Part shown: in pieces, positions 21,217 to 50,831 of the stretch
How positions within the stretch are numbered: the stretch's first letter is position 1
Layout: every line of letters starts with the position of its first letter
From: an uncultured Saprospiraceae bacterium
GTDB taxonomy: Bacteria; Bacteroidota; Bacteroidia; Chitinophagales; Saprospiraceae
Assembly (NCBI GenBank): GCA_938016265.1
Contig: CALLWB010000033.1
Coordinates: forward strand, 1 to 54,314
DNA: 54,314 bases
Direction: 5' to 3'
Program-made: the position numbers and the translations under genes
The notes under the pieces: generated by a model
What the model saw: the letters and a program-made list of their open reading frames with translations, nothing else
Database searches by the model: none
Told to the model about the DNA's origin: nothing

Positions 21217-21990
21217 ATGAAAACGACTTTTTATCTACTTCTGTTTTTGCTACTATCTATCCCAATTACCGGATTTGGAAAATGTTTTGTAACGATAAGT
21301 CCATGTGTCGGTCCCTCTCCGTTTGCACCTACTGCATCAAATGCAAAGGTTTTGACAACTGGATACCCGATCATGCCCTACACTGGTGTTTTAATTCCGC
21401 CTAGTTGCGGAACGCTGGTAGACACTATTTATACAAATACTTTTACTGGTTGCGGAGCGTGCACCTTGACTTCTGGGTCATCATCCCTGACGACAGGATA
21501 CACACCTCCCGCAGGCCACTGTATTTATGACGCTTTTTTAGTAGAAAATTGCCTTCCTAATGGACCTTGCTTGCTGGACACCGTTATTGTGACCTTTGTC
21601 ACTCAGTGCCTGGAAATTGAGGAAGATACCTACTTGGCTCCTGTTGACTCAACGGTCATGCTTGTAGCCCACCCCGTATTGAATGACCGAGTTTTTGGAA
21701 TCCCTCAATTAGACCCTTGCGACCTGACTGTGATCGAGCCAGTATCCAACGGAACGCTAATGATGATGGGATCAAGTTGTGACCTTGTTTATGCTCCCAA
21801 TCCAGGCTTTTCTGGAGTAGACACCTTTATCTATGAAATATGTAGTGCGGGTGTCTGCAACTCAGGAGTCGTCTCGATTTATGTTACAAACGCCATCCCT
21901 ACACTTTCTGAATGGGGATTGATTTTGACCGGACTTATGCTACTTCTTTTCGGAAGTAAACAAATCTTAGAATTATCGGCTCTTAGTTGA
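21217..21990 (+). CDS. Secreted Ig-like protein with IPTL-CTERM sorting signal
   Basis: A 257-residue exported protein. It has a signal peptide (about 1-21, FYLLLFLLLSIPITGFG) and a Cys/Pro/Thr-rich region at 22-130. An Ig-like domain at about 145-222 contains LVAHPVLNDRVFGIPQLDPC and FSGVDTFIYEICSAGVCNSG. The C-terminus, IPTLSEWGLILTGLMLLLFG (from about residue 227), is followed by a short tail. This is the IPTL-CTERM pattern: motif, hydrophobic helix, tail. It is thought to be a sorting and processing signal for surface proteins. The Ig-like domain resembles two domains in the giant protein that starts 50 bp downstream, so the genes likely form one operon. Confidence 0.82.
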   Translation: MKTTFYLLLFLLLSIPITGFGKCFVTISPCVGPSPFAPTASNAKVLTTGYPIMPYTGVLIPPSCGTLVDTIYTNTFTGCGACTLTSGSSSLTTGYTPPAGHCIYDAFLVENCLPNGPCLLDTVIVTFVTQCLEIEEDTYLAPVDSTVMLVAHPVLNDRVFGIPQLDPCDLTVIEPVSNGTLMMMGSSCDLVYAPNPGFSGVDTFIYEICSAGVCNSGVVSIYVTNAIPTLSEWGLILTGLMLLLFGSKQILELSALS

Positions 21991-22040: not shown

Positions 22041-25000
22041 ATGAAAAAACTTTACTCAAAAATCTTTATTATGAAATCATTACAACTTCAAATATTAATT
22101 GCCTCCTTATTTTTCTGCTTGCTGGGAAGTATTGACGTGAATGCACAAGCCTGCAGAGAGGATACAATTGTTCTAAATACAGGATATGATCCCCTTACGG
22201 GAATGAGCATTCCTGCAGGAACGGCAGATTCCCGTTGGAGGGTTATCGCTGATCCGGATCCTAGTACCGTTGAACCCCGGCCAGCATGGGCAATAGTCCC
22301 ACATCCAGCTTGGGCTCCTGCATTGCCCAACACTAGCTGGGTAAGTTCCTACCCAACAAATACCAATAATACAAACGGTGGTTATACCTTCGAGTATTGT
22401 TTCTGTATGGAACCAGGCTTGCAAAATCCTGAAATCCATTTTGGACTGAGAGCAGATGACTACGCCACCGTTTTTTTTAACGGTGCGTTGATTGGCAATA
22501 CTCCAAACCCAGGGTTTAATACCCCAATGCCGACCCCATTCAGTATAGTAAATCCATTTTTGTTTGCACAAGGAGGCAAAAACTGCCTACAAATTGTTAA
22601 CACCAATGCATTTGGAGTAGCCATGGGTTTCGATCTGCAAGGGTTTGCAACCGCCAATTCATTAACTATGCTTCAAGACACTTGTTGCAACGATGGAGGA
22701 AGAATTACTGGAGTAAAATTTAATGACCTTAACGGAAATGGCGCCTGGGATCCATTCGAACCTGAACTTCCAGGTTGGGATATTGTGTTGACAAATGGTA
22801 CTTCTGTTTGGAATACCACCACTGACGCTAGTGGGTATTATTACTTTAATGCCTTATTACCTGGCACCTATACCGTCTCAGAAATCAACCAGCCAGGTTG
22901 GACGCAAACTTTTCCGGCAGGAGCCACACATACAGTATCACTTGGAATGGGAGATCTGGCCACAAACATAAATTTTGGAAACTACAGCGGACCACCGCCA
23001 TCGGTTTGTGATAAAGCAGATTATAGCATTTTTCCTGCAGCTCAACCAAATGTCGATTGTTGCTGGCGGCTTAATATTGACAATGGAATGCTCGACTATT
23101 TTACTTCGCTGTCCCTAGTAGGGCAAGGAGGAGTCACACTTTCTTATAACCCAGGATCTATCAGTCCGGGATGGACGGATATTGCTTCTGGAGCAAACTT
23201 TGTTCAGTTGGCACCGCCAACAACTTATGTGCCTACCGGTTCAACTCCAGGACTGATCCAGTTTTGTGTAGGAAATATTACTTCTTCCCCTCAAGAAGTA
23301 TTTCTAAACTGGTATGGACCCGGCGGCGACATTGAATGTATAGATACGCTGGTGCTAAATTGTCCACCGATGCCTGCCCCTTGTGCATACACAGAAAATG
23401 ATGCTATTATTTGTGATCAGGGACAACCTGTATTAGAATTTTCGCTTTATAATCCGCCTGCTGCGGCATGGGATATAGAAGCATTTACTATAAATGTTGT
23501 TTCGGGAGGGTCTGTTACTCCTACCTTCTTCACAACAACACCAATTGCCGCAGGTAGTGTAGGTGGCCCATTTCAATCATCGGTAACCGGAATACCTGGG
23601 TCTACTATCTGCTATACTGTTACAGTCTATAATGCCGACCCTAATGATGACCCCAATGCCCTTCGTTGTACAACGGATACTATTTGCCTTCAAATCCCAT
23701 ACTGTGATCCATGTGGAGGAATATCTACTTCGGTACAAGGGAATATACAAGACTGTTGTTGGAGTATCAACCTTACTAATAGTTACGCACCTGGTTATTT
23801 CTATGGTGTTGAAACAGAGATTTTGACTCCTGGAGTTTATTTCTCTTCCATTGTCAATCCTCCTGGATCTGGCTGGACATATAATACTTCAACCCCTTAT
23901 TCTACTAGCAATGTACAGTGGAATCTGGCACCGCCTTCCGGAGCAGCTTTACCGATGGGAACTACTTCGTTGCCTAGCTTCTGCCTAGATGGTTTTACGA
24001 CAGCTCCACAGGTTATGTTAGTCAAATGGCTGGCAATTGACGGCACTGTCTGCACTGATACACTGGAATTCGATTGCCCACCTCCACCAATAAATGTATG
24101 CGATAGCACCGATATGGGGTATTATCCTGTAGCTCAACCAAATGATGATTGCTGCTGGATTATTGACACTTACAATGGGATGCCTAATTATTTTACTGCC
24201 TTGGAATTAGAAGGTTTAGGAGGGGTAACAATTTCATACAACCCCGCGGATATTAACCCGATGTGGACAGACAATTCGTTTGGACCAAATTTCGTGCAAT
24301 TAGTTCCGGCCGCACCCTTGACTTATGCTCCAACAGGACCAACTCCAGGGCTCATAGAGTTTTGTGTAGGTAATGTAACTACCTCCCCTCAACAGGTCAT
24401 CCTTAAATGGTACGGACCAAACTTTACGGTAGAATGTACGGACACCCTTACGATTGATTGCGATCCGCCAATACCTCCTTGTGCCTACACCGTAAATGAC
24501 ACAATTATTTGTGAACAAGGGCTATCGATTTTAGAGTTTTCCATACACAACCCGACAACAGCGACATGGGATGTAGAGTCTTTCATGATTAATACTATTT
24601 CTGGAGGTACGGTGACGCCAGCTTACTTTACTACGGCTCCGATCACTCCTGGTAGTACGGCTGGGCCATTCCAAACAACGCTTACAGGAACACCAGGCAC
24701 CAATTATTGCTACACAGTAACCGTTCATGAAGACGATATTGCGGTAAATCCGAATGCGGCTTGCTGCACGACAGATACCACTTGCTTAATAATACCTGAA
24801 TGTGATCCTTGTGAACGTGTTTCTGCATCAGTACAAGGGAATGTGCAGGATTGTTGTTGGAGTATCAATCTGAACAACGGATATGCTCCCGGCTATTTTT
24901 ACGGTATTGAAACGGAAATATTAACACCAGGAGTGTATTTTTCTTCTATTATTAATCCTCCGGGTTCTGGTTGGACATTCAATACCTCCACTCCATATTC

Positions 25001-27296
25001 CAATAGCAATGTTCAGTGGAATTTAGCACCACCTTCAGGGACGACCTTGCCATTAGGCATCACCACGTTACCAAATTTCTGTATGAGTGGTTATACTACG
25101 ACTCCTCAAGTAATGGTCATAAAATGGTTGGCAGTAGACGGCACCATGTGCACAGATACCCTCGAATTTGACTGTCCACCACCGCCACCACCAATTGATT
25201 GCGCAGATTTCATAAAAGATACCATCACCTGTAACCCCGACGGCACCTTCAATTTTAACTTTGCAATATCAAACTACAGTGGTCAGACGATCAATGCAGT
25301 AAATCTGCACACCTTTGCTCCCTCAGGGATCACGATCACTCCGAATCCTATTGGCTTGGGTACTGTTCCGCATTTGAATTCATCACTAATGCAAACGGTG
25401 AATATAAGTGGACCGGATGCCATACCTGGAGCGACTATTTGCTTCAAGTATACTGTTCACGAGTATGACGCAGCCGGCAATCCACTGTTTTGCTGTACGC
25501 CAAATGGGACAATTTGTATAACGCTGCCGAATTGCTGTTGTGATGAGGATCAGAGTATCGTAACGAATGGTTCCTTCACAGGTGGATTGGCACCTTGGAT
25601 TCCTTTTGCAGGATCACCTCAGCACCAAGCAGCGGTAGGTTGTGATGCCTTAGGTAGTGCACAAATGTGGGGTAATCAAGTCGTGGGAGAAGCGATTCAG
25701 CAAAACATGACATTTATTGCTGGCCAAACTTACCAGGTATCTTACTGTGCAAAATGGTGGAACAATAATCCCGCTTTACCTCCTGTGGTTCGATTGAAGA
25801 TGAGAGCTGCCACTGCAACTGGGGCAACTACCTTCACCGCGTGTCCAGCAGGCGATTGTGAGATCGTGGACATCAGTCCTGATTTGACTGTTCCATTCCA
25901 GACTTTTTGCTTTGACTGGACGCCAGCCAATAATTATTCAAGAGTAATTATCCAACCGGAAAACAACTTTGCTGTAAATGATGGGAATTTTGTTTCCTGG
26001 TTGCATGTGGATGATGTGTGTATTCAGCCAACAGACGTTGTAGTGCCCTGTGAAATGGATGCAAATGATGACTTTATTACTGTAAACCCATTGCAATCAA
26101 CGCTGATAAATATTCTGCTGAATGATGTTGGCAGTTCTAGTGCTTGTCCAGTAGATCCATGCTCAGTTACAATAATAACTCCACCCTTAAATGGATCGGT
26201 ATTTTTAGGCGGGGCTCCTGGTTGTCAGGTGGCTTACTCTCCAAACCCGGGCGCTTTCGGAACTGATTGTTTTGAATATAGTGTTTGCGATGCTTGTGGT
26301 TGTTGTGATACTGCACGAGTGTGCATTAAAATAAACAACAAACCAATTGCAGTCGATGACTCTGTGGATCTTCCAGCTGGTACAGCAACTCCGCTATATC
26401 CAATAGCGAATGACGCTGATCCAGATGGACCTCTTGACCCTTGCGATATCCAGATAATCACCCAGCCAGCAAATGGTATTCTTATTCTTGGTGATGCGCC
26501 TGCTTGTGGACTTACTTATCTTCCGCACAATGGTTTCGAAGGAACGGATTCGTTTGAATACGGGATTTGTGATTCACTTGATCTTTGTGATAGTGCATTA
26601 GTAAATATCGTTGTACATCCCTGGATTGCTGATGTTGGTGTAGAGGTGTTGTTGGAAGGTCCTTACGATGCGACCACAGGGTTGATGAATGACGACTTGC
26701 GAATCGCTGGGCTTATTCCTCAGGAAGAACCTTATACAATGCTAGGATATGAACGAGGAGCAGCACAAGGAGGGGAAATGTTTGACCCCTTGGTGCTCGG
26801 GCAAACTGGGCCAAGCGCAATTGTAGATTGGGTATTGATAGAGCTCAGGTCTGCTACGGATCCCGAACATATTTTAACCACTCAAGCTGGGTTGATACAA
26901 AGAGATGGCCGGGTGATAAGTGCTAAAGGAGAATACCCGATGAAAGTGAGAATGCCTGCAATCGAACCAGTCGAATATTTGGTATCAGTGCGGCATAGAA
27001 ATCATTTGAGTGTTATCTCTCCACAGATTTGTGTTTGTTGTAATGGGATTTGTAGCAATGGATTTAGTCAATTGAATATCCCAGGACAAACAGAAGTCGC
27101 TCCGGGGGTTTATGCGATGACTGCAGGAGATGCAACTGGCAATGATGAGGTAGAATCCGGTGACCGATCTATGATCTGGAATGATCGAAATTCGGCAGGA
27201 TACATGGAGTCAGATGTTGATATGAATGGTGTCGTAGAATCTGGAGACCGTTCCATAGCCTGGAATAATAGAAATAAAATGGCGCAAATGCCATAA
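22041..27296 (+). CDS. Giant multidomain secreted surface protein with C-terminal dockerin-like module
   Basis: A 1751-residue protein. Signal peptide about 1-36 (the ATG at 22071 is an alternative start). An N-terminal beta domain to about 215 is followed by an SdrD-B-like domain at about 222-320 (GVKFNDLNGNGAWDPFEPEL). Two tandem copies of a Cys-rich unit of about 364 residues follow (323-686 and 687-1050). Then come another beta domain, a CBM-like jelly-roll (about 1170-1330, NGSFTGG...WLHVDDVCI) and two cadherin/Ig-like domains (about 1335-1530). The C-terminal module at about 1531-1690 contains VDWVLIELR and HRNH, and two EF-hand-like repeats lie at 1696-1751. No T9SS or IPTL signal ends it. 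It is probably a surface adhesin or carbohydrate-binding scaffold. Confidence 0.88.
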   Translation: MKKLYSKIFIMKSLQLQILIASLFFCLLGSIDVNAQACREDTIVLNTGYDPLTGMSIPAGTADSRWRVIADPDPSTVEPRPAWAIVPHPAWAPALPNTSWVSSYPTNTNNTNGGYTFEYCFCMEPGLQNPEIHFGLRADDYATVFFNGALIGNTPNPGFNTPMPTPFSIVNPFLFAQGGKNCLQIVNTNAFGVAMGFDLQGFATANSLTMLQDTCCNDGGRITGVKFNDLNGNGAWDPFEPELPGWDIVLTNGTSVWNTTTDASGYYYFNALLPGTYTVSEINQPGWTQTFPAGATHTVSLGMGDLATNINFGNYSGPPPSVCDKADYSIFPAAQPNVDCCWRLNIDNGMLDYFTSLSLVGQGGVTLSYNPGSISPGWTDIASGANFVQLAPPTTYVPTGSTPGLIQFCVGNITSSPQEVFLNWYGPGGDIECIDTLVLNCPPMPAPCAYTENDAIICDQGQPVLEFSLYNPPAAAWDIEAFTINVVSGGSVTPTFFTTTPIAAGSVGGPFQSSVTGIPGSTICYTVTVYNADPNDDPNALRCTTDTICLQIPYCDPCGGISTSVQGNIQDCCWSINLTNSYAPGYFYGVETEILTPGVYFSSIVNPPGSGWTYNTSTPYSTSNVQWNLAPPSGAALPMGTTSLPSFCLDGFTTAPQVMLVKWLAIDGTVCTDTLEFDCPPPPINVCDSTDMGYYPVAQPNDDCCWIIDTYNGMPNYFTALELEGLGGVTISYNPADINPMWTDNSFGPNFVQLVPAAPLTYAPTGPTPGLIEFCVGNVTTSPQQVILKWYGPNFTVECTDTLTIDCDPPIPPCAYTVNDTIICEQGLSILEFSIHNPTTATWDVESFMINTISGGTVTPAYFTTAPITPGSTAGPFQTTLTGTPGTNYCYTVTVHEDDIAVNPNAACCTTDTTCLIIPECDPCERVSASVQGNVQDCCWSINLNNGYAPGYFYGIETEILTPGVYFSSIINPPGSGWTFNTSTPYSNSNVQWNLAPPSGTTLPLGITTLPNFCMSGYTTTPQVMVIKWLAVDGTMCTDTLEFDCPPPPPPIDCADFIKDTITCNPDGTFNFNFAISNYSGQTINAVNLHTFAPSGITITPNPIGLGTVPHLNSSLMQTVNISGPDAIPGATICFKYTVHEYDAAGNPLFCCTPNGTICITLPNCCCDEDQSIVTNGSFTGGLAPWIPFAGSPQHQAAVGCDALGSAQMWGNQVVGEAIQQNMTFIAGQTYQVSYCAKWWNNNPALPPVVRLKMRAATATGATTFTACPAGDCEIVDISPDLTVPFQTFCFDWTPANNYSRVIIQPENNFAVNDGNFVSWLHVDDVCIQPTDVVVPCEMDANDDFITVNPLQSTLINILLNDVGSSSACPVDPCSVTIITPPLNGSVFLGGAPGCQVAYSPNPGAFGTDCFEYSVCDACGCCDTARVCIKINNKPIAVDDSVDLPAGTATPLYPIANDADPDGPLDPCDIQIITQPANGILILGDAPACGLTYLPHNGFEGTDSFEYGICDSLDLCDSALVNIVVHPWIADVGVEVLLEGPYDATTGLMNDDLRIAGLIPQEEPYTMLGYERGAAQGGEMFDPLVLGQTGPSAIVDWVLIELRSATDPEHILTTQAGLIQRDGRVISAKGEYPMKVRMPAIEPVEYLVSVRHRNHLSVISPQICVCCNGICSNGFSQLNIPGQTEVAPGVYAMTAGDATGNDEVESGDRSMIWNDRNSAGYMESDVDMNGVVESGDRSIAWNNRNKMAQMP
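23007..25190 (+). repeat. In-gene tandem duplication, two units of about 1.09 kb
   Basis: Unit 1 begins at 23007 (CDKADYSIFPAAQPN) and unit 2 at 24099 (CDSTDMGYYPVAQPN), a period of 1092 bp or 364 codons. Both units run through the same landmarks in the same order: FCVGN, PCAYT, DCCWSIN and EILTPGVYFSS. Protein identity is high by eye, while codons differ throughout. The duplication is therefore not very recent. Confidence 0.85.
26631..27293 (+). other. C-terminal surface module: VDWVL/HRNH domain plus dockerin-like repeats
   Basis: This is the coding segment for residues 1531-1751. The first part has LEGPYD, EEPYTMLGYE, VDWVLIELR, a DGRV turn and HRNHLSVIS. The last part has two EF-hand-like loops, DATGNDEVESGDRSMIWNDR and DVDMNGVVESGDRSIAWNNR, with acidic or amide residues at positions 1, 3, 5 and 12. 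That matches the calcium-loop spacing of type I dockerins. The same architecture ends the esterase-like protein at 48687. Confidence 0.7.
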
Positions 27297-27320
27297 ATGA
27301 ATTTGGATTGAACAATAGAG

Positions 27321-27357
27321 AAGGCCAGGGGTGTTAAACGAACACGCCTGTTGCCTT
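27321..27357 (+). promoter_or_regulatory. Hairpin between giant protein gene and T9SS cargo gene
   Basis: AAGGC, CAGG and GTGTT (27321-27335) pair with AACAC, CCTG and GCCTT (27341-27357). There is one G-G mismatch, a two-base bulge and loop AAACG. No T run follows, so it is more likely an mRNA-stability, attenuation or partial-termination element in the operon than a full terminator. Confidence 0.55.
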
Positions 27358-27389
27358 CCAATTTTCAAAAAATATTAAACGTTTAAAAA

Positions 27390-28271
27390 ATGAATAATCT
27401 AAAATATTTGCTGGCAGTTTTGTTGGTTTGGACAACTGTAAGTGTCACTTCGGCCTCTGTCCATGTTTGTATTGCCAATCAGGAAATAAATGGAGACGAA
27501 TTGTCTTTTGATTTATTTCTTTCTACAGAAGCGGAAGGAGAAGTTGCTTATTTGTCCAACTCCGATTTTGTTTTCACCTTAGAGGGGGTTGATTTGGAGG
27601 GCCTCACTTTTACGAAAGTAAGTACAGAAGGTATGTTTGATAAAGGGTATTGCGAATTGACATCCAGCCTGCATACTGACGGTGGAGCATTGACAACAAT
27701 GATCGATGTGCAAAAACCCTATTTCGACAATACACAAACCGCAATAGTCGGTAACCTTCTGGTTGTTAATGTATATGGTCTTACAATCAATACTGAGCAG
27801 GATTTGAAAACGCGAGGTGCCAGAATAGACCACAGACAAGCCACGCACCGACTTGGTCGATTTAAGGTTTCAGGGATTGCAAATCCCCTTTCCAAGATAA
27901 AGTTTTCAGCATCTAGTGGTCTAAAAACCAAAATGTTTGGACACGATGTATTGGATGCTAATCTCCGCACAAAAGGATTGGAATGGAAAGAATGTACTGC
28001 TAGGAAGCCAATGAGTCAGGCTGGTGATATCGGTGATTTCGAACTTGTTTTGTCTCCTAATCCAACAGCAGATAAGGTGCAAATTTCAATAATTGGCGCT
28101 GAGGAAAAAGACCACAACTACCATGTGTACTCAATGGAGGGGCGCAATTTCGCAAGTGGTGTTTTGACGCATAGTAATTCTAATATATTGAATTTGGAGG
28201 CCGCACCAAGTGGTGTATATCTATTGAAAGTAGAAGGTCAACAAGCAGTTTATAAAGTAGTTAAACAATAA
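27390..28271 (+). CDS. T9SS-sorted protein with beta-rich, possibly cohesin-like domain
   Basis: A 293-residue exported protein. Signal peptide about 1-22 (LAVLLVWTTVSVTSA). A single beta-rich domain at about 23-190 contains FDLFLSTEAEGEVAYLSNSD, FVFTLEGV and RLGRFKVSG. The C-terminal type A T9SS sorting domain at about 215-293 contains FELVLSPNPTADKVQISI, YSMEGR and PSGVYLLKVEG...YKVVKQ. The T9SS signal should deliver it across the outer membrane and allow surface attachment. The N-domain strand pattern recalls cohesin-like folds, and the gene directly follows one encoding a dockerin-like protein. A binding partnership is inferred, not shown. The gene lies 93 bp after the giant protein gene and before a clear terminator. 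Confidence 0.83.
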   Translation: MNNLKYLLAVLLVWTTVSVTSASVHVCIANQEINGDELSFDLFLSTEAEGEVAYLSNSDFVFTLEGVDLEGLTFTKVSTEGMFDKGYCELTSSLHTDGGALTTMIDVQKPYFDNTQTAIVGNLLVVNVYGLTINTEQDLKTRGARIDHRQATHRLGRFKVSGIANPLSKIKFSASSGLKTKMFGHDVLDANLRTKGLEWKECTARKPMSQAGDIGDFELVLSPNPTADKVQISIIGAEEKDHNYHVYSMEGRNFASGVLTHSNSNILNLEAAPSGVYLLKVEGQQAVYKVVKQ

Positions 28272-28463: not shown

Positions 28464-29006
28464 ATGAGACGCATTTGTTTGTTTTTTGCAACTATTTTGT
28501 TTTGCAGCGCAACTTTTATTAACGAAGCTATTATTGAAGACTTTAGTGTAAAGAGGACATGGACGACCTTTACTGATGTAACTGTAGGAGGAAAATCTAC
28601 CGCCATGCTCAAATACAAGAAAGATGGAATCGGTGAATTTAAAGGAGTTTTATCTGGTAATAATAATGCTGGTCTTGCACAGGCGATCAGCCCGGAACTA
28701 ACTGAGTCATTGGAAAATCATAATGGTTTTCTAATACGAGTAAAAGGAGATGGCAAATATTATCATCTAGCTCTACAAGAGCAGGCAAACGTGAAAAATG
28801 GGGTACACTATGAGTACAAATTCCCAACTCGCGCTGGGGAATGGCAAATTCTTAAGCTGCCATTTTCAAAATTTGAAGCTTCGTATTTCGGTGTTCCTGT
28901 CATGGGGCAGGCAATGCAGTTAGAAACCATTAAAAATATTTCCTTTATCAATGCGCAGCAGGAAGGGAAGTTTCATTTGGAGATTGACTATATGAAATTG
29001 TACTAA
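28464..29006 (+). CDS. CIA30 family exported protein
   Basis: A 180-residue protein with a signal peptide (LFFATILFCSATFINEA) and a beta-sandwich domain of the CIA30 (NDUFAF1-like) type. Evidence is WTTFTDVTVGGKSTAMLKYK, FKGVLSGNNNAGLAQA, FLIRVKGDGKYYHLAL, WQILKLPFSKFEASYFG and IKNISFINAQQEGKFHLEID. In mitochondria the family assists complex I assembly. The bacterial members are galactose-binding-like domains of unsettled role, so a complex I link should not be assumed. The protein is predicted to be periplasmic or surface located. Its transcript probably ends at the hairpin at 29089-29126. Confidence 0.85.
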   Translation: MRRICLFFATILFCSATFINEAIIEDFSVKRTWTTFTDVTVGGKSTAMLKYKKDGIGEFKGVLSGNNNAGLAQAISPELTESLENHNGFLIRVKGDGKYYHLALQEQANVKNGVHYEYKFPTRAGEWQILKLPFSKFEASYFGVPVMGQAMQLETIKNISFINAQQEGKFHLEIDYMKLY

Positions 29007-48388: not shown

Positions 48389-48686
48389 ATTTTGCCGATC
48401 AAAAAAGGCAAAGTCATTATATTTTTAAATTGTATTCCTGGTTTTGATTCCAATCTTTCCAAATTGACGAGCAAATACCTTATATTTGTTAGGCCGACAC
48501 TATAATCCGAAACCCAATTTTATCAGTTTTTATGCACGTCCTAAAGTGATTTGCAAGAAAAGGCAACTATAATTTTTATTCTACTAGAAAAAAATGGTGA
48601 TTGGTATACCATCCGCCTGTTTTTTTAGTTTTAAAAGTAGTTTCTTAATCTTTCCAGTCATTTTGCTGTTGAACTTATGCGCCATT

Positions 48687-50831
48687 ATGAGAATAGGCTT
48701 CACTATATTCTGGATTTTTTGCTGTTTGTCTTTATTTGGGCAACAGGTTTCGGTGCAGTCTTTTCCTATAGATTGGCAATTGTTCCCAAGAGATGTTGTC
48801 ACCAACCAAGCAACGATCAACATTGCAGGCGAGGTAGTAGATAGTAATTTTCAAATCCTTGCTCTAGAGGTTTCCAAAGATAGCATTGTACAATATATTG
48901 ATAGTGTTTTTTTATCCGGACAAGCCAATGAACCCTTCATTTTTACTTCCACCATCCAAGCAGAATTAGCCAATTACTCCTATCGATTGCTACTCGCAGA
49001 TACAAGCAATCAATACGTCATTCAAGAAGCAAATCAAGTAGTAGCTGGCGATGTTTTTTTAATTCAGGGACAGTCCAACGCCTACTCCAGATTAATAGCT
49101 GGCAGCACCTACACGGAGCCTGGGAATCAATGGGTGAGATCCTTTGGAAGCACTGATGTCGATCCTGTTGTAGTACAAAACAACCTGCTTTGGTATCCTG
49201 CCAATGCAATAACAAACGACAATGGCCGCATCGGAATCTGGGGAATGGAAATGGCCATAAAAATCCGTGACTTCCACCAAATCCCAGTTGCAATTATGAA
49301 TGGCGCACTTGGCGCCACCTCCATTTTAACCCATGGACAAAACACTAGCCTAAATTCGATTTATGGCAGATTGCTTTACCGGTGTCAACAGGCAGGGGTC
49401 GATACTTCTGCTAGGGCAATATTCTGGTGGCAAGGGGAGCGGGATTGCTCTGGTACTACGGTTGCCAATCAACAAGAATACTACGATCAGTTTGTCCTGC
49501 TACAAAATGCATGGCAAGCGGATTTTCCTGGACTTCAAAATACTTACATCACTCAAATTCATACTGTACATCGCTACGAAATTGGTAGCGAAATCCGCGA
49601 AGCACAGCGACAATTGAGTCTGGATTTTCCGGAAATTGTCATTCAATCATCGCATAATCTCCCAGACTTTGATGGATTTGCGCATCATTCACCTACTGGG
49701 TACCTACTGTTTGCAGACTGGATATTCCATCAGGTACAAAGAGATATTTACAATAGCAGTTTCATCAATACGGACCCGCCTAAAATACTATCCGCCAAAT
49801 ATACCGATGGACGGAAGAATAAAATTGAATTGGAGTTTACACAGCCTGTCAATTGTCAGGATGACACCGTTATCACAGGATTGGGATTGGTACAATTGGA
49901 AGACTATTTTATGTTGGACAATCTTTGGGGAAATGTGGATAGTGCCGTAGTGATCAACAATACAATCGAGCTTTATCTAGCGGAGTCGGTTTCTGCTGAT
50001 CACGTTTCTTATCTTCCTGGAGGACAATACCACAATAGCTCGCAGGTCTACGATGGTCCATGGATTACCAATGATCTTGGAATAGGCGCCATTTCTTTTT
50101 ATGAATTTCCTATTGAAGAACCGGAATCCGTACTTCAATTAAAGCTATTTCTGGAAGGGAGTTATATGGACAGTTTGGGTAAGATGCGAGTGTCTTTGAA
50201 TACCCCGCATCACCTTTTGCCTGGACAGTCGGGCTCTTCTGGCCCTGTAGGCCAGCCATACGCTTTTCCTCCTTGGAATTATATGGGGTCAGAAGGCATG
50301 TCGTTTGATGATCGTGGGTACAATGGAGATGTGGTCGATTGGGTATTGGTCAGTTTACGAACGGATATTTCTGCGGATTCTGTGGTCTATCAGGCGGCCT
50401 GTTTGCTAGACAGCGATGGGCGAATTCGGCTTGTTTCTCCAGTAGCTATCAAACTTGTGGATACGGACTCTTTTTATGTTGTTGTTGAACATCGAAATCA
50501 TATTGGAGTGATGTCGGCCAATAAAGTACCAGTTATGAATTGTATGCTTGAATACGATTTTACTACTCAGAATACATATACTGGAAATGGAGGGAGTGGT
50601 TCTGTAGAACTAACGTCTGGTGTATGGGCATTGTTTGCAGGAGATGGTGCTCAATTCAATGATGTGGTCAGTTATGACATCAACGGAGAAGATCGTGCGT
50701 TGTGGGAAGACGAAAATGGTGCATTTTTTATCTACAACCCGGCAGATTATAATATGGATGGGGAAGTGAGTGGGCTTGATCGGATTAATTGGCTTAGGAA
50801 TAATGGAGTGAGTTCTAGAGTGCCTAAGTAA
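48687..50831 (+). CDS. Secreted SGNH/sialate O-acetylesterase-like enzyme with dockerin-like C-terminus
   Basis: A 714-residue exported protein. ATG 48687 is chosen over ATG 48594 because it gives a compact signal peptide (MRIGFTIFWIFCCLSLFGQ). The sialate O-acetylesterase-like (SASA/SGNH) domain at about 95-370 shows VFLIQGQSNAYSR (nucleophile Ser), NGALGATSI, IFWWQGERDCSG and the late HHSPTGYLLFADW (catalytic His). A beta domain follows at about 375-480. The module at about 480-640 has LEGSYM, VDWVLVSLR and VVVEHRNHIGVMS. The end carries DYNMDGEVSGLDRINWLRNN, an EF-hand-like loop, preceded by a weaker one. It probably removes acetyl esters from glycans at the cell surface; the true substrate is unknown. 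Confidence 0.86.
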   Translation: MRIGFTIFWIFCCLSLFGQQVSVQSFPIDWQLFPRDVVTNQATINIAGEVVDSNFQILALEVSKDSIVQYIDSVFLSGQANEPFIFTSTIQAELANYSYRLLLADTSNQYVIQEANQVVAGDVFLIQGQSNAYSRLIAGSTYTEPGNQWVRSFGSTDVDPVVVQNNLLWYPANAITNDNGRIGIWGMEMAIKIRDFHQIPVAIMNGALGATSILTHGQNTSLNSIYGRLLYRCQQAGVDTSARAIFWWQGERDCSGTTVANQQEYYDQFVLLQNAWQADFPGLQNTYITQIHTVHRYEIGSEIREAQRQLSLDFPEIVIQSSHNLPDFDGFAHHSPTGYLLFADWIFHQVQRDIYNSSFINTDPPKILSAKYTDGRKNKIELEFTQPVNCQDDTVITGLGLVQLEDYFMLDNLWGNVDSAVVINNTIELYLAESVSADHVSYLPGGQYHNSSQVYDGPWITNDLGIGAISFYEFPIEEPESVLQLKLFLEGSYMDSLGKMRVSLNTPHHLLPGQSGSSGPVGQPYAFPPWNYMGSEGMSFDDRGYNGDVVDWVLVSLRTDISADSVVYQAACLLDSDGRIRLVSPVAIKLVDTDSFYVVVEHRNHIGVMSANKVPVMNCMLEYDFTTQNTYTGNGGSGSVELTSGVWALFAGDGAQFNDVVSYDINGEDRALWEDENGAFFIYNPADYNMDGEVSGLDRINWLRNNGVSSRVPK
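50131..50829 (+). other. C-terminal surface module, second copy
   Basis: This coding segment matches 26631-27293 in order: LEGSYM, a Pro/Gly-rich PY segment, NYMGSEGM, VDWVLVSLR, QAACLLDSDGRIR, EHRNHIGVMS, SGVWALFAGD, then EF-hand-like loops. The second loop (DYNMDGEVSGLDR) has acidic or amide residues at 1, 3, 5 and 12. The first (DINGEDRALWEDENG) is degenerate. Confidence 0.65.

Follow-up and report, generated by a model that had tools for sequence, protein, structure and literature searches.

Genes of the locus

The stretch of DNA analyzed here (the window, 54,314 nucleotides) comes from an uncultured Saprospiraceae bacterium with a genome of 7.44 Mb (GenBank assembly GCA_938016265.1, contig CALLWB010000033.1, positions 1-54,314) and carries two adjacent plus-strand genes that we interpret as the halves of a surface docking module, probably one that works like a cohesin-dockerin pair. 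According to the list of open reading frames (ORFs) and a Pfam scan, the first gene (22041-27296) encodes a giant protein of 1751 amino acids with SdrD_B and Big_9 domains, whose last 219 residues form a single module, here called the tail. This module comprises a beta-rich domain of about 163 residues (26637-27125), which had no Pfam match at E<=1, and two dockerin-type calcium loops of 12 residues (27129-27164 and 27213-27248) recognized from the translation and alignment. The second gene (27390-28271) begins 93 bp behind the first and encodes the proposed surface receptor, a protein of 293 amino acids with a hydrophobic N-terminus that looks like a signal peptide by eye. Its receptor domain of about 185 amino acids (27456-28010), delimited by profile, predicted model and Foldseek matches, is predicted to be cohesin-like and is followed by a type A sorting domain of the type IX secretion system (T9SS; residues 222-293, 28053-28268; TIGR04183, 36.8 bits against a cut-off of 23). 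Of the T9SS machinery, SprA is encoded in the same genome (2393.9 bits against a cut-off of 200). No T9SS signal was detected in the giant protein at E<=1, and no terminator-like site was found between the two genes on their strand.

A first-pass annotation, made from the sequence of the window, had reported the two loops with dockerin spacing, the missing T9SS signal of the giant protein, and a next gene 93 bp on that joins a beta-rich domain to a T9SS type A signal, all of which hold. Beyond that annotation, we recognized the beta-rich domain ahead of the loops, at least 150 places in the genome at which the tail occurs, and a second copy in the window. The latter ends a protein with a SASA esterase domain (48594-50831, plus strand; tail at 50145-50825).

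A C-terminal module with dockerin-like loops

The loops of the giant protein read D-A-T-G-N-D-E-V-E-S-G-D and D-V-D-M-N-G-V-V-E-S-G-D, each with R-S-x-x-W-N-x-R-N behind it, and both fit the tandem 12-residue pattern D-x-[ND]-x-[DS]-G-x-[VI]-[DN]-x-x-D with deviations at single positions. For 76 distinct tails the reading frame could be followed to its stop codon: 69 finish no more than 5 residues before the stop and 5 more no more than 20 before it, making 74 of 76 C-terminal. The two internal tails (L016 and L107) belong to proteins that continue for 228 and 559 residues beyond them. Both loops are regular in 63 of the 76 tails and variant in the other 13; the spacing between the twelfth loop positions is 28 residues in 53 tails and 29 in 10. 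In loop 2 of the 63 regular tails, position 1 is always D, position 6 always G and position 12 always D or E, and the two loops of one protein are 54% alike over 21 positions. Such regularity lies far beyond chance. Chance or low complexity as the source of the tail is ruled out by the conservation across the 76 tails. One loop variant recurs in several genomes as an inserted stretch resembling YSGSGNDRS between the calcium positions (L143, L151, L158, L165 and L175), and on a Chlorobiota contig (L091, 2652-6655) the reading frame shifts within the tail module, before the loops.

The family is large. In the source genome, 150 of 187 candidates were scored and the tail matched at 150 or more places, the weakest scored match having an E value of 1.2e-10. 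When the source genome and its relatives were searched with at most 75 candidates scored per genome, 15 of 40 genomes carried the tail; the three genomes of the window's genus gave 75, 74 and 75 matches among the 75 scored in each, and other relatives gave 63 (G005), 36 (G047) and 11 (G004). Twenty tail proteins scanned with Pfam bear a mixture of subtilase, M43 peptidase, SASA esterase, BPL_N, FG-GAP/ASPIC, laminin-G, HYR, SdrD_B and Big_9 domains, several have none, and no cellulase domain was found among these 20.

Pfam Dockerin_1 (PF00404) matched neither the giant protein nor its tail alone at E<=1. Over the source genome the same model gave 37 matches at E<=1, and 24 of these lie in tail ends (that is, the match starts inside the last 173 bases of a tail) against 0.07 expected. 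Four of the 37 were flagged above the cut-off, two of them only with in-frame neighbors, and one of the four is in a tail (C81, 25.0 bits against 22.9). The tail protein L117 falls exactly at the cut-off (22.9 bits), and the model recognizes 2 of the 14 members of tail alignment A6 (best E 6.3e-6). Because the Dockerin_1 matches concentrate in this way in the tail ends of relatives, in L117 and in members of A6, we regard the tail end as dockerin-like at the level of the family, a classification drawn from sequence profiles. Searches of the PDB with the single tail sequence returned mostly cyanovirin-N matches, which we read as chance, and the tail profile returned one weak match (5lxv_B, E 0.85) with an alignment that spans both loops. 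This chain we take to be a dockerin; chain 5lxv_A is titled scaffoldin C. The stretches behind the loops, where a dockerin is expected to have a helix, are contained in one structure model, that of a fused tail-receptor chain, with predicted local distance difference test (pLDDT) values of about 31-46.

Tail and receptor genes form a two-gene module

The two genes were often found together, whichever of them was used as the starting point. A search with the receptor alone led to ten contigs, from two Melioribacteraceae, one Chlorobiota, four Saprospiraceae, one Flavobacteriales and two other Bacteroidota metagenome-assembled genomes. A tail gene lies directly upstream of the receptor on the same strand in seven of the ten (L090-L094, L097 and L099); the tail is directly downstream in L095, within the same ORF in L098, and absent in L096, where the contig ends inside the receptor ORF. 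In three genomes of the window's genus, 5 of 20 receptor genes stand directly behind a tail gene (the window, L105, L106, L108 and L117) and 3 are fused to a tail (L102, L113 and L114). Of the 9 receptor genes in the source genome, 3 have a tail gene ahead of them, as against 1 of 146 other scored T9SS type A genes (Fisher p 5e-4). Gaps of up to 1000 bp were allowed in this comparison for receptor genes, and of up to 700 bp for controls; all three receptor cases are within 248 bp. The single control gene behind a tail (C34) has no receptor domain match.

The starting point was then the tail, in a sample of 247 genomes of the phylum with at most 12 candidates scored per genome. Tails were found in 34 genomes and receptors, by profile A10, in 3, all of which also have tails; in both of those besides the source genome (G135 and G299) the receptor is directly behind the tail. 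An earlier receptor profile (A3) had found receptors in the genus only, in 3 of 60 genomes; as the neighbors of the tails revealed, its reach was too narrow. Linkage was assessed for 47 tail ORFs in 40 regions, which represent 32 of the 33 genomes with tails outside the source genome (G213 and several tails of multi-tail genomes were left out), and 45 of these ORFs have a next gene. The controls, taken from the same regions, were 127 non-tail ORFs of at least 200 codons with 1.3 kb available downstream; 87 of them have a next gene. With the hidden Markov models (HMMs) A10, A13 and A14 (E<=1e-3), 26 of the 45 next genes were found to encode a receptor domain. A T9SS-like C-terminal domain was called in 34 of the 45, at least one of the two features in 38 and both in 22. 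The corresponding control counts were 0, 3 and 3 of 87 for receptor, T9SS-like domain and either feature (Fisher p for either, 2e-22), and the median gap of the 38 paired genes is 22 bp. The counts of 26, 34 and 38 are not independent, because the HMMs A13, A14 and c3 were built from some of the same neighbors. With the HMMs that were not built from neighbors (A10 and ctd), and without the 26 controls that are followed by a tail, 27 of the 45 next genes had either feature as against 3 of 61 in the controls (p 3e-10); for ctd alone the counts were 25 and 3, and for A10 alone 7 and 0 (p 0.002). The curated models TIGR04183 and PF18962 each matched 25 of 40 next genes, a set that includes two histidine kinases and excludes four next genes that encode tails as well as the next gene of L140 (1667 amino acids).

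In 20 of the 21 genomes that have a single tail among their scored candidates (G158, G166 and G217 had further candidates that were not scored) the tail is paired with a neighbor that has a receptor domain, a T9SS-like signal or both, and in the exception (G092) the tail is a variant with no next gene. Tail and receptor gene constitute a real two-gene module, found repeatedly in the genomes sampled from the phylum. A receptor match of any kind was missing from some of the next genes that carry a T9SS-like signal, among them L151, L152, L155 and L159.

Some of the receptor domains in these neighbors are divergent in sequence. In profile-profile comparison with A10, group A13, which has a WANGTF motif, reached a probability of 93% over 141 columns, group A14 (L138-L142) 95%, and its extension A15 97% (E 4.9e-11); A13 and A15 compared directly gave 3.8%, and all control comparisons with the tail profile stayed below 1%. 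On these profile comparisons, the divergent domains belong with the receptor family of the window. Receptor domain and tail also occur within one protein (L098, L102, L113, L114, L211 and L216).

Two of these fused proteins stand next to further proteins with receptor or receptor-like domains. On contig C48 of the source genome (L216, 1942-5337), a receptor-tail protein of 420 amino acids is followed directly by a protein of 707 amino acids that has a receptor domain, Big_9 and a T9SS signal, together with a Pfam cohesin match below the cut-off and what look by eye like dockerin-type loops; the two make a scaffoldin-like pair. On contig C254 of G047, a genome with 36 tails (L211, 3460-14000), a receptor-tail protein of 452 amino acids precedes one of 1813 amino acids with a receptor-like N-terminal domain and a T9SS signal, and a third ORF with a similar N-terminal domain follows.

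Predicted fold of the receptor domain

AlphaFold2, supplied with 13 sequences, produced a beta-rich model of the receptor domain with a pLDDT of 71.8 and a predicted template modeling score (pTM) of 0.74. In a Foldseek comparison with 350,542 PDB chains, cohesins or cohesin-containing chains took ranks 1-6 and 14 of the top 15 places, and rank 7 was a cellulose-binding domain. The best match, 3kcp_A (E 8.5e-4), was the sole one below 0.001. Template modeling scores of the cohesin matches were modest, at about 0.3-0.5, with carbohydrate-binding modules (CBMs) of families CBM2 and CBM3 close behind. For the model of the fused tail-receptor chain, a cohesin again came out on top (4fl4_K, E 3.3e-4); a cellulose-binding domain ranked next, and then a second cohesin and enzymes that bear CBMs. 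Because of these rankings for both models, the receptor is predicted to have a fold of the cohesin/CBM kind, nearest to cohesin.

PDB searches by sequence did not reveal this fold. A PDB search with the receptor sequence alone gave matches confined to its T9SS part; of the receptor profiles searched against the PDB, the first gave nothing meaningful and a larger one no match. Sub-cut-off matches to Pfam cohesin (cut-off 24.1) do exist in the source genome. One covers residues 37-98 in the N-terminal domain of a tail protein (C101, 14.6 bits, 14.2 on rescan), a stretch that the receptor models also match weakly; two others lie near the C-terminus of proteins, just ahead of a T9SS signal (C48, 22.9 and 19.2 on rescan; C76, 20.4).

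Other genes next to the pair

In the product of the gene 50 bp ahead of the giant gene (21217-21990), a stretch resembling Big_9 is accompanied by an IPTL-CTERM motif (PF18203; 29.8 bits, cut-off 20.8), which places a different C-terminal sorting signal beside a tail protein. Behind the receptor gene, the next gene (28464-29006) codes for a protein with a CIA30 domain (PF08547, 107 bits) and a CBM_11 match that falls just short of its cut-off.

A proposed docking mechanism and its alternatives

We infer from these results that the tail binds the receptor, and we consider this docking idea well supported, most strongly by the linkage of the two genes; a calcium-loop plug and socket for surface proteins, working like a cohesin-dockerin pair, is in our judgment the probable function of the module. 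T9SS would export the receptor and fix it on the outer surface, and the tail would bind the receptor domain, with calcium keeping the loops in shape. The tail protein would thereby be displayed on the cell. A few receptors would serve many tail proteins in the source genome, proteins that combine a receptor domain with a tail may act as adaptors, and those with a receptor domain and a T9SS signal as anchors. We propose these roles because the architectures (anchor, adaptor, and a beta-rich domain with loops on the ligand) fit the roles known from cellulosomes. A more speculative extension, which we hold to be possible and rather less than likely, is that the receptor also serves as an export vehicle, with tail proteins binding it in the periplasm and crossing the T9SS pore in trans. 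A few type A receptors might then be responsible for both the export and the display of at least 150 tail proteins. No description of such carriage in trans was met in the titles and abstract openings of literature on T9SS with dockerin or cohesin, which were not searched for this point in particular.

Several observations weigh against the docking mechanism. Pfam cohesin (PF00963) matches none of 28 receptor domains at E<=1. Profiles of receptor groups compared with six solved type I cohesins reached a probability of 13-15%, with the register as expected around DFVF, other groups gave 0.3% and 0.9%, and type II cohesins gave 0.1%, while type I and type II cohesin profiles compared with each other as a control gave 90%. 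By sequence profile, then, the receptor would not be classed as a Pfam cohesin. The single-chain model of fused tail and receptor has a pTM of 0.42, a pLDDT of about 38-46 in the loops and no confident interface. Twelve of the 20 receptor genes of the genus, some of them on short contigs, have no tail adjacent or in the same ORF. Seven of the 45 next genes have neither feature, three being another tail and the others belonging to L171 and L172 (1228 and 1172 amino acids, taken as the two histidine kinases), L153 and L162, and 2 of 47 tails have no next gene. By profile A3, most tail genes of the source genome have no adjoining receptor, which fits shared receptors without proving them. Of the tail-bearing relatives, G005 and G047 gave only weak A10 matches (E 0.07-0.33) and G004 none; the A14 model found receptor-like domains in the G005 and G047 regions (20-53 bits), those of G047 being fused to a tail in one instance and located in two next ORFs in the others.

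The first-pass annotation had read the pair as a dockerin on the giant protein and a surface-anchored cohesin-like receptor beside it. The linkage of the genes, including the recurrence of their adjacency across genomes, and the predicted fold of the 27390 domain support that reading in part, as does the dockerin profile at family level; a Pfam cohesin match and a confident interface were not obtained.

Two alternatives retain some weight. The receptor domain might be a CBM2/CBM3-type module, with the neighbors acting on the same polysaccharide without touching each other. Cohesins and CBM2/CBM3 modules have a common sandwich fold, and structures that bear CBM2 or CBM3 are among the Foldseek matches of both models, a further point against docking. 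Cohesins nevertheless rank above CBMs for the receptor-domain model, and a single receptor family adjoins very different tail proteins (with FG-GAP, laminin-G, HYR or SdrD_B domains, or with none), the tail being their common part, and we therefore find this explanation improbable. The tail could instead be a third kind of T9SS sorting signal, its neighbor being an ordinary T9SS type A protein with an accessory role such as a chaperone or processing factor. The terminal position of the tail in nearly all proteins (74 of 76) and the lack of a T9SS signal in the giant protein would suit such a signal, as would its abundance, at least 150 places being similar in scale to the type A signals of the same genome (520 candidates, 150 scored). 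Against this, the end of the tail consists of calcium loops, recognized in relatives by the Pfam dockerin model. A sorting signal alone would also leave unexplained why, in 20 of the 21 genomes where a single tail was scored, a neighbor with a receptor domain, a T9SS-like signal or both stands directly behind the tail gene; the chances of this alternative seem small to us. Finally, a conserved operon of two surface proteins that are merely co-expressed is very unlikely, for even though adjacency alone is no proof of contact and the fused model did not predict a complex, dockerin-like loops and a cohesin-like fold were found independently on the two sides, fused receptor-tail proteins exist, and such neighbors are rare in controls.

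Relation to known systems

Cellulosomal cohesin-dockerin pairs include X-module-dockerin dyads and involve proteins in anchor, adaptor and ligand roles. The module described here resembles them in its duplicated C-terminal calcium loops behind a beta-rich domain, as in the X-module-dockerin dyad, in a predicted receptor fold nearest to solved cohesins, and in the presence of anchor-like, adaptor-like and ligand proteins. It differs in a receptor that the cohesin model does not recognize, in the 28-29 residues between twelfth loop positions, and in the use of T9SS instead of S-layer homology (SLH) or sortase anchoring. The 27390 product has one receptor domain and is not a multi-cohesin scaffoldin, and the 20 scanned tail proteins lack a cellulase. 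As cargo of T9SS type A (TIGR04183) the receptor is typical, with a signal above the cut-off in a genome that has SprA, whereas the tail protein, in which no signal was detected, would be held in trans. The 2009 survey of Peer et al. reportedly covers dockerin and cohesin domains in proteins that have no link to cellulose.

The closest precedent is Candidatus Stygibacter (Cloacimonadota), for which excerpts of the published report propose a cellulosome-like complex of dockerin enzymes and a T9SS-anchored cohesin scaffoldin (PMC8542988). According to the same excerpts, that system likewise has C-terminal dockerin-type ligands and a cohesin partner with a C-terminal surface-attachment domain referred to T9SS; it differs in having tandem cohesins in a scaffoldin of 3,755 amino acids with CBM2 and CBM3 (PMC8542988). 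In comparison with those excerpts, the present module has a small single-domain receptor encoded directly behind the tail gene, another sequence family and many more ligands. Anaerobic methanotrophic (ANME) archaea also have many dockerin and cohesin proteins, and resemble our case in that these domains are on proteins not tied to cellulose; they differ in that the excerpted text describes neither T9SS nor a conserved two-gene module (PMC9012536). Dockerin matches are reported in single-cell genomes of cockroach Bacteroidota (excerpt of PMC10266427), and the cellulase genes of Melioribacter roseus are given as having no dockerin or scaffoldin domains (excerpt of PMC3534657).

In the literature on dockerin or cohesin with Bacteroidota or T9SS, judged by titles and abstract openings, no description of this module was found. 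The suggestion in the first-pass annotation that such a system would be new was nonetheless too strong as to kind, because non-cellulosomal cohesin and dockerin modules are known and a T9SS-anchored example has been proposed for Candidatus Stygibacter (PMC8542988, in excerpt). Cohesin-dockerin pairs outside cellulosomes, one of them T9SS-anchored, have thus already been proposed, and the module of the window is a new variant.

If true, docking through a common tail to an anchored receptor of its own would account for the retention of large secreted proteins that lack a known sorting signal at the surface of these bacteria, and the tail would become an address label by which such proteins could be catalogued in any genome. 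Small and direct test systems are provided by genomes that have a single tail and a single receptor. If the mechanism is correct, cohesin-dockerin-type docking would be a general method of surface assembly that extends beyond the degradation of plant polysaccharides.

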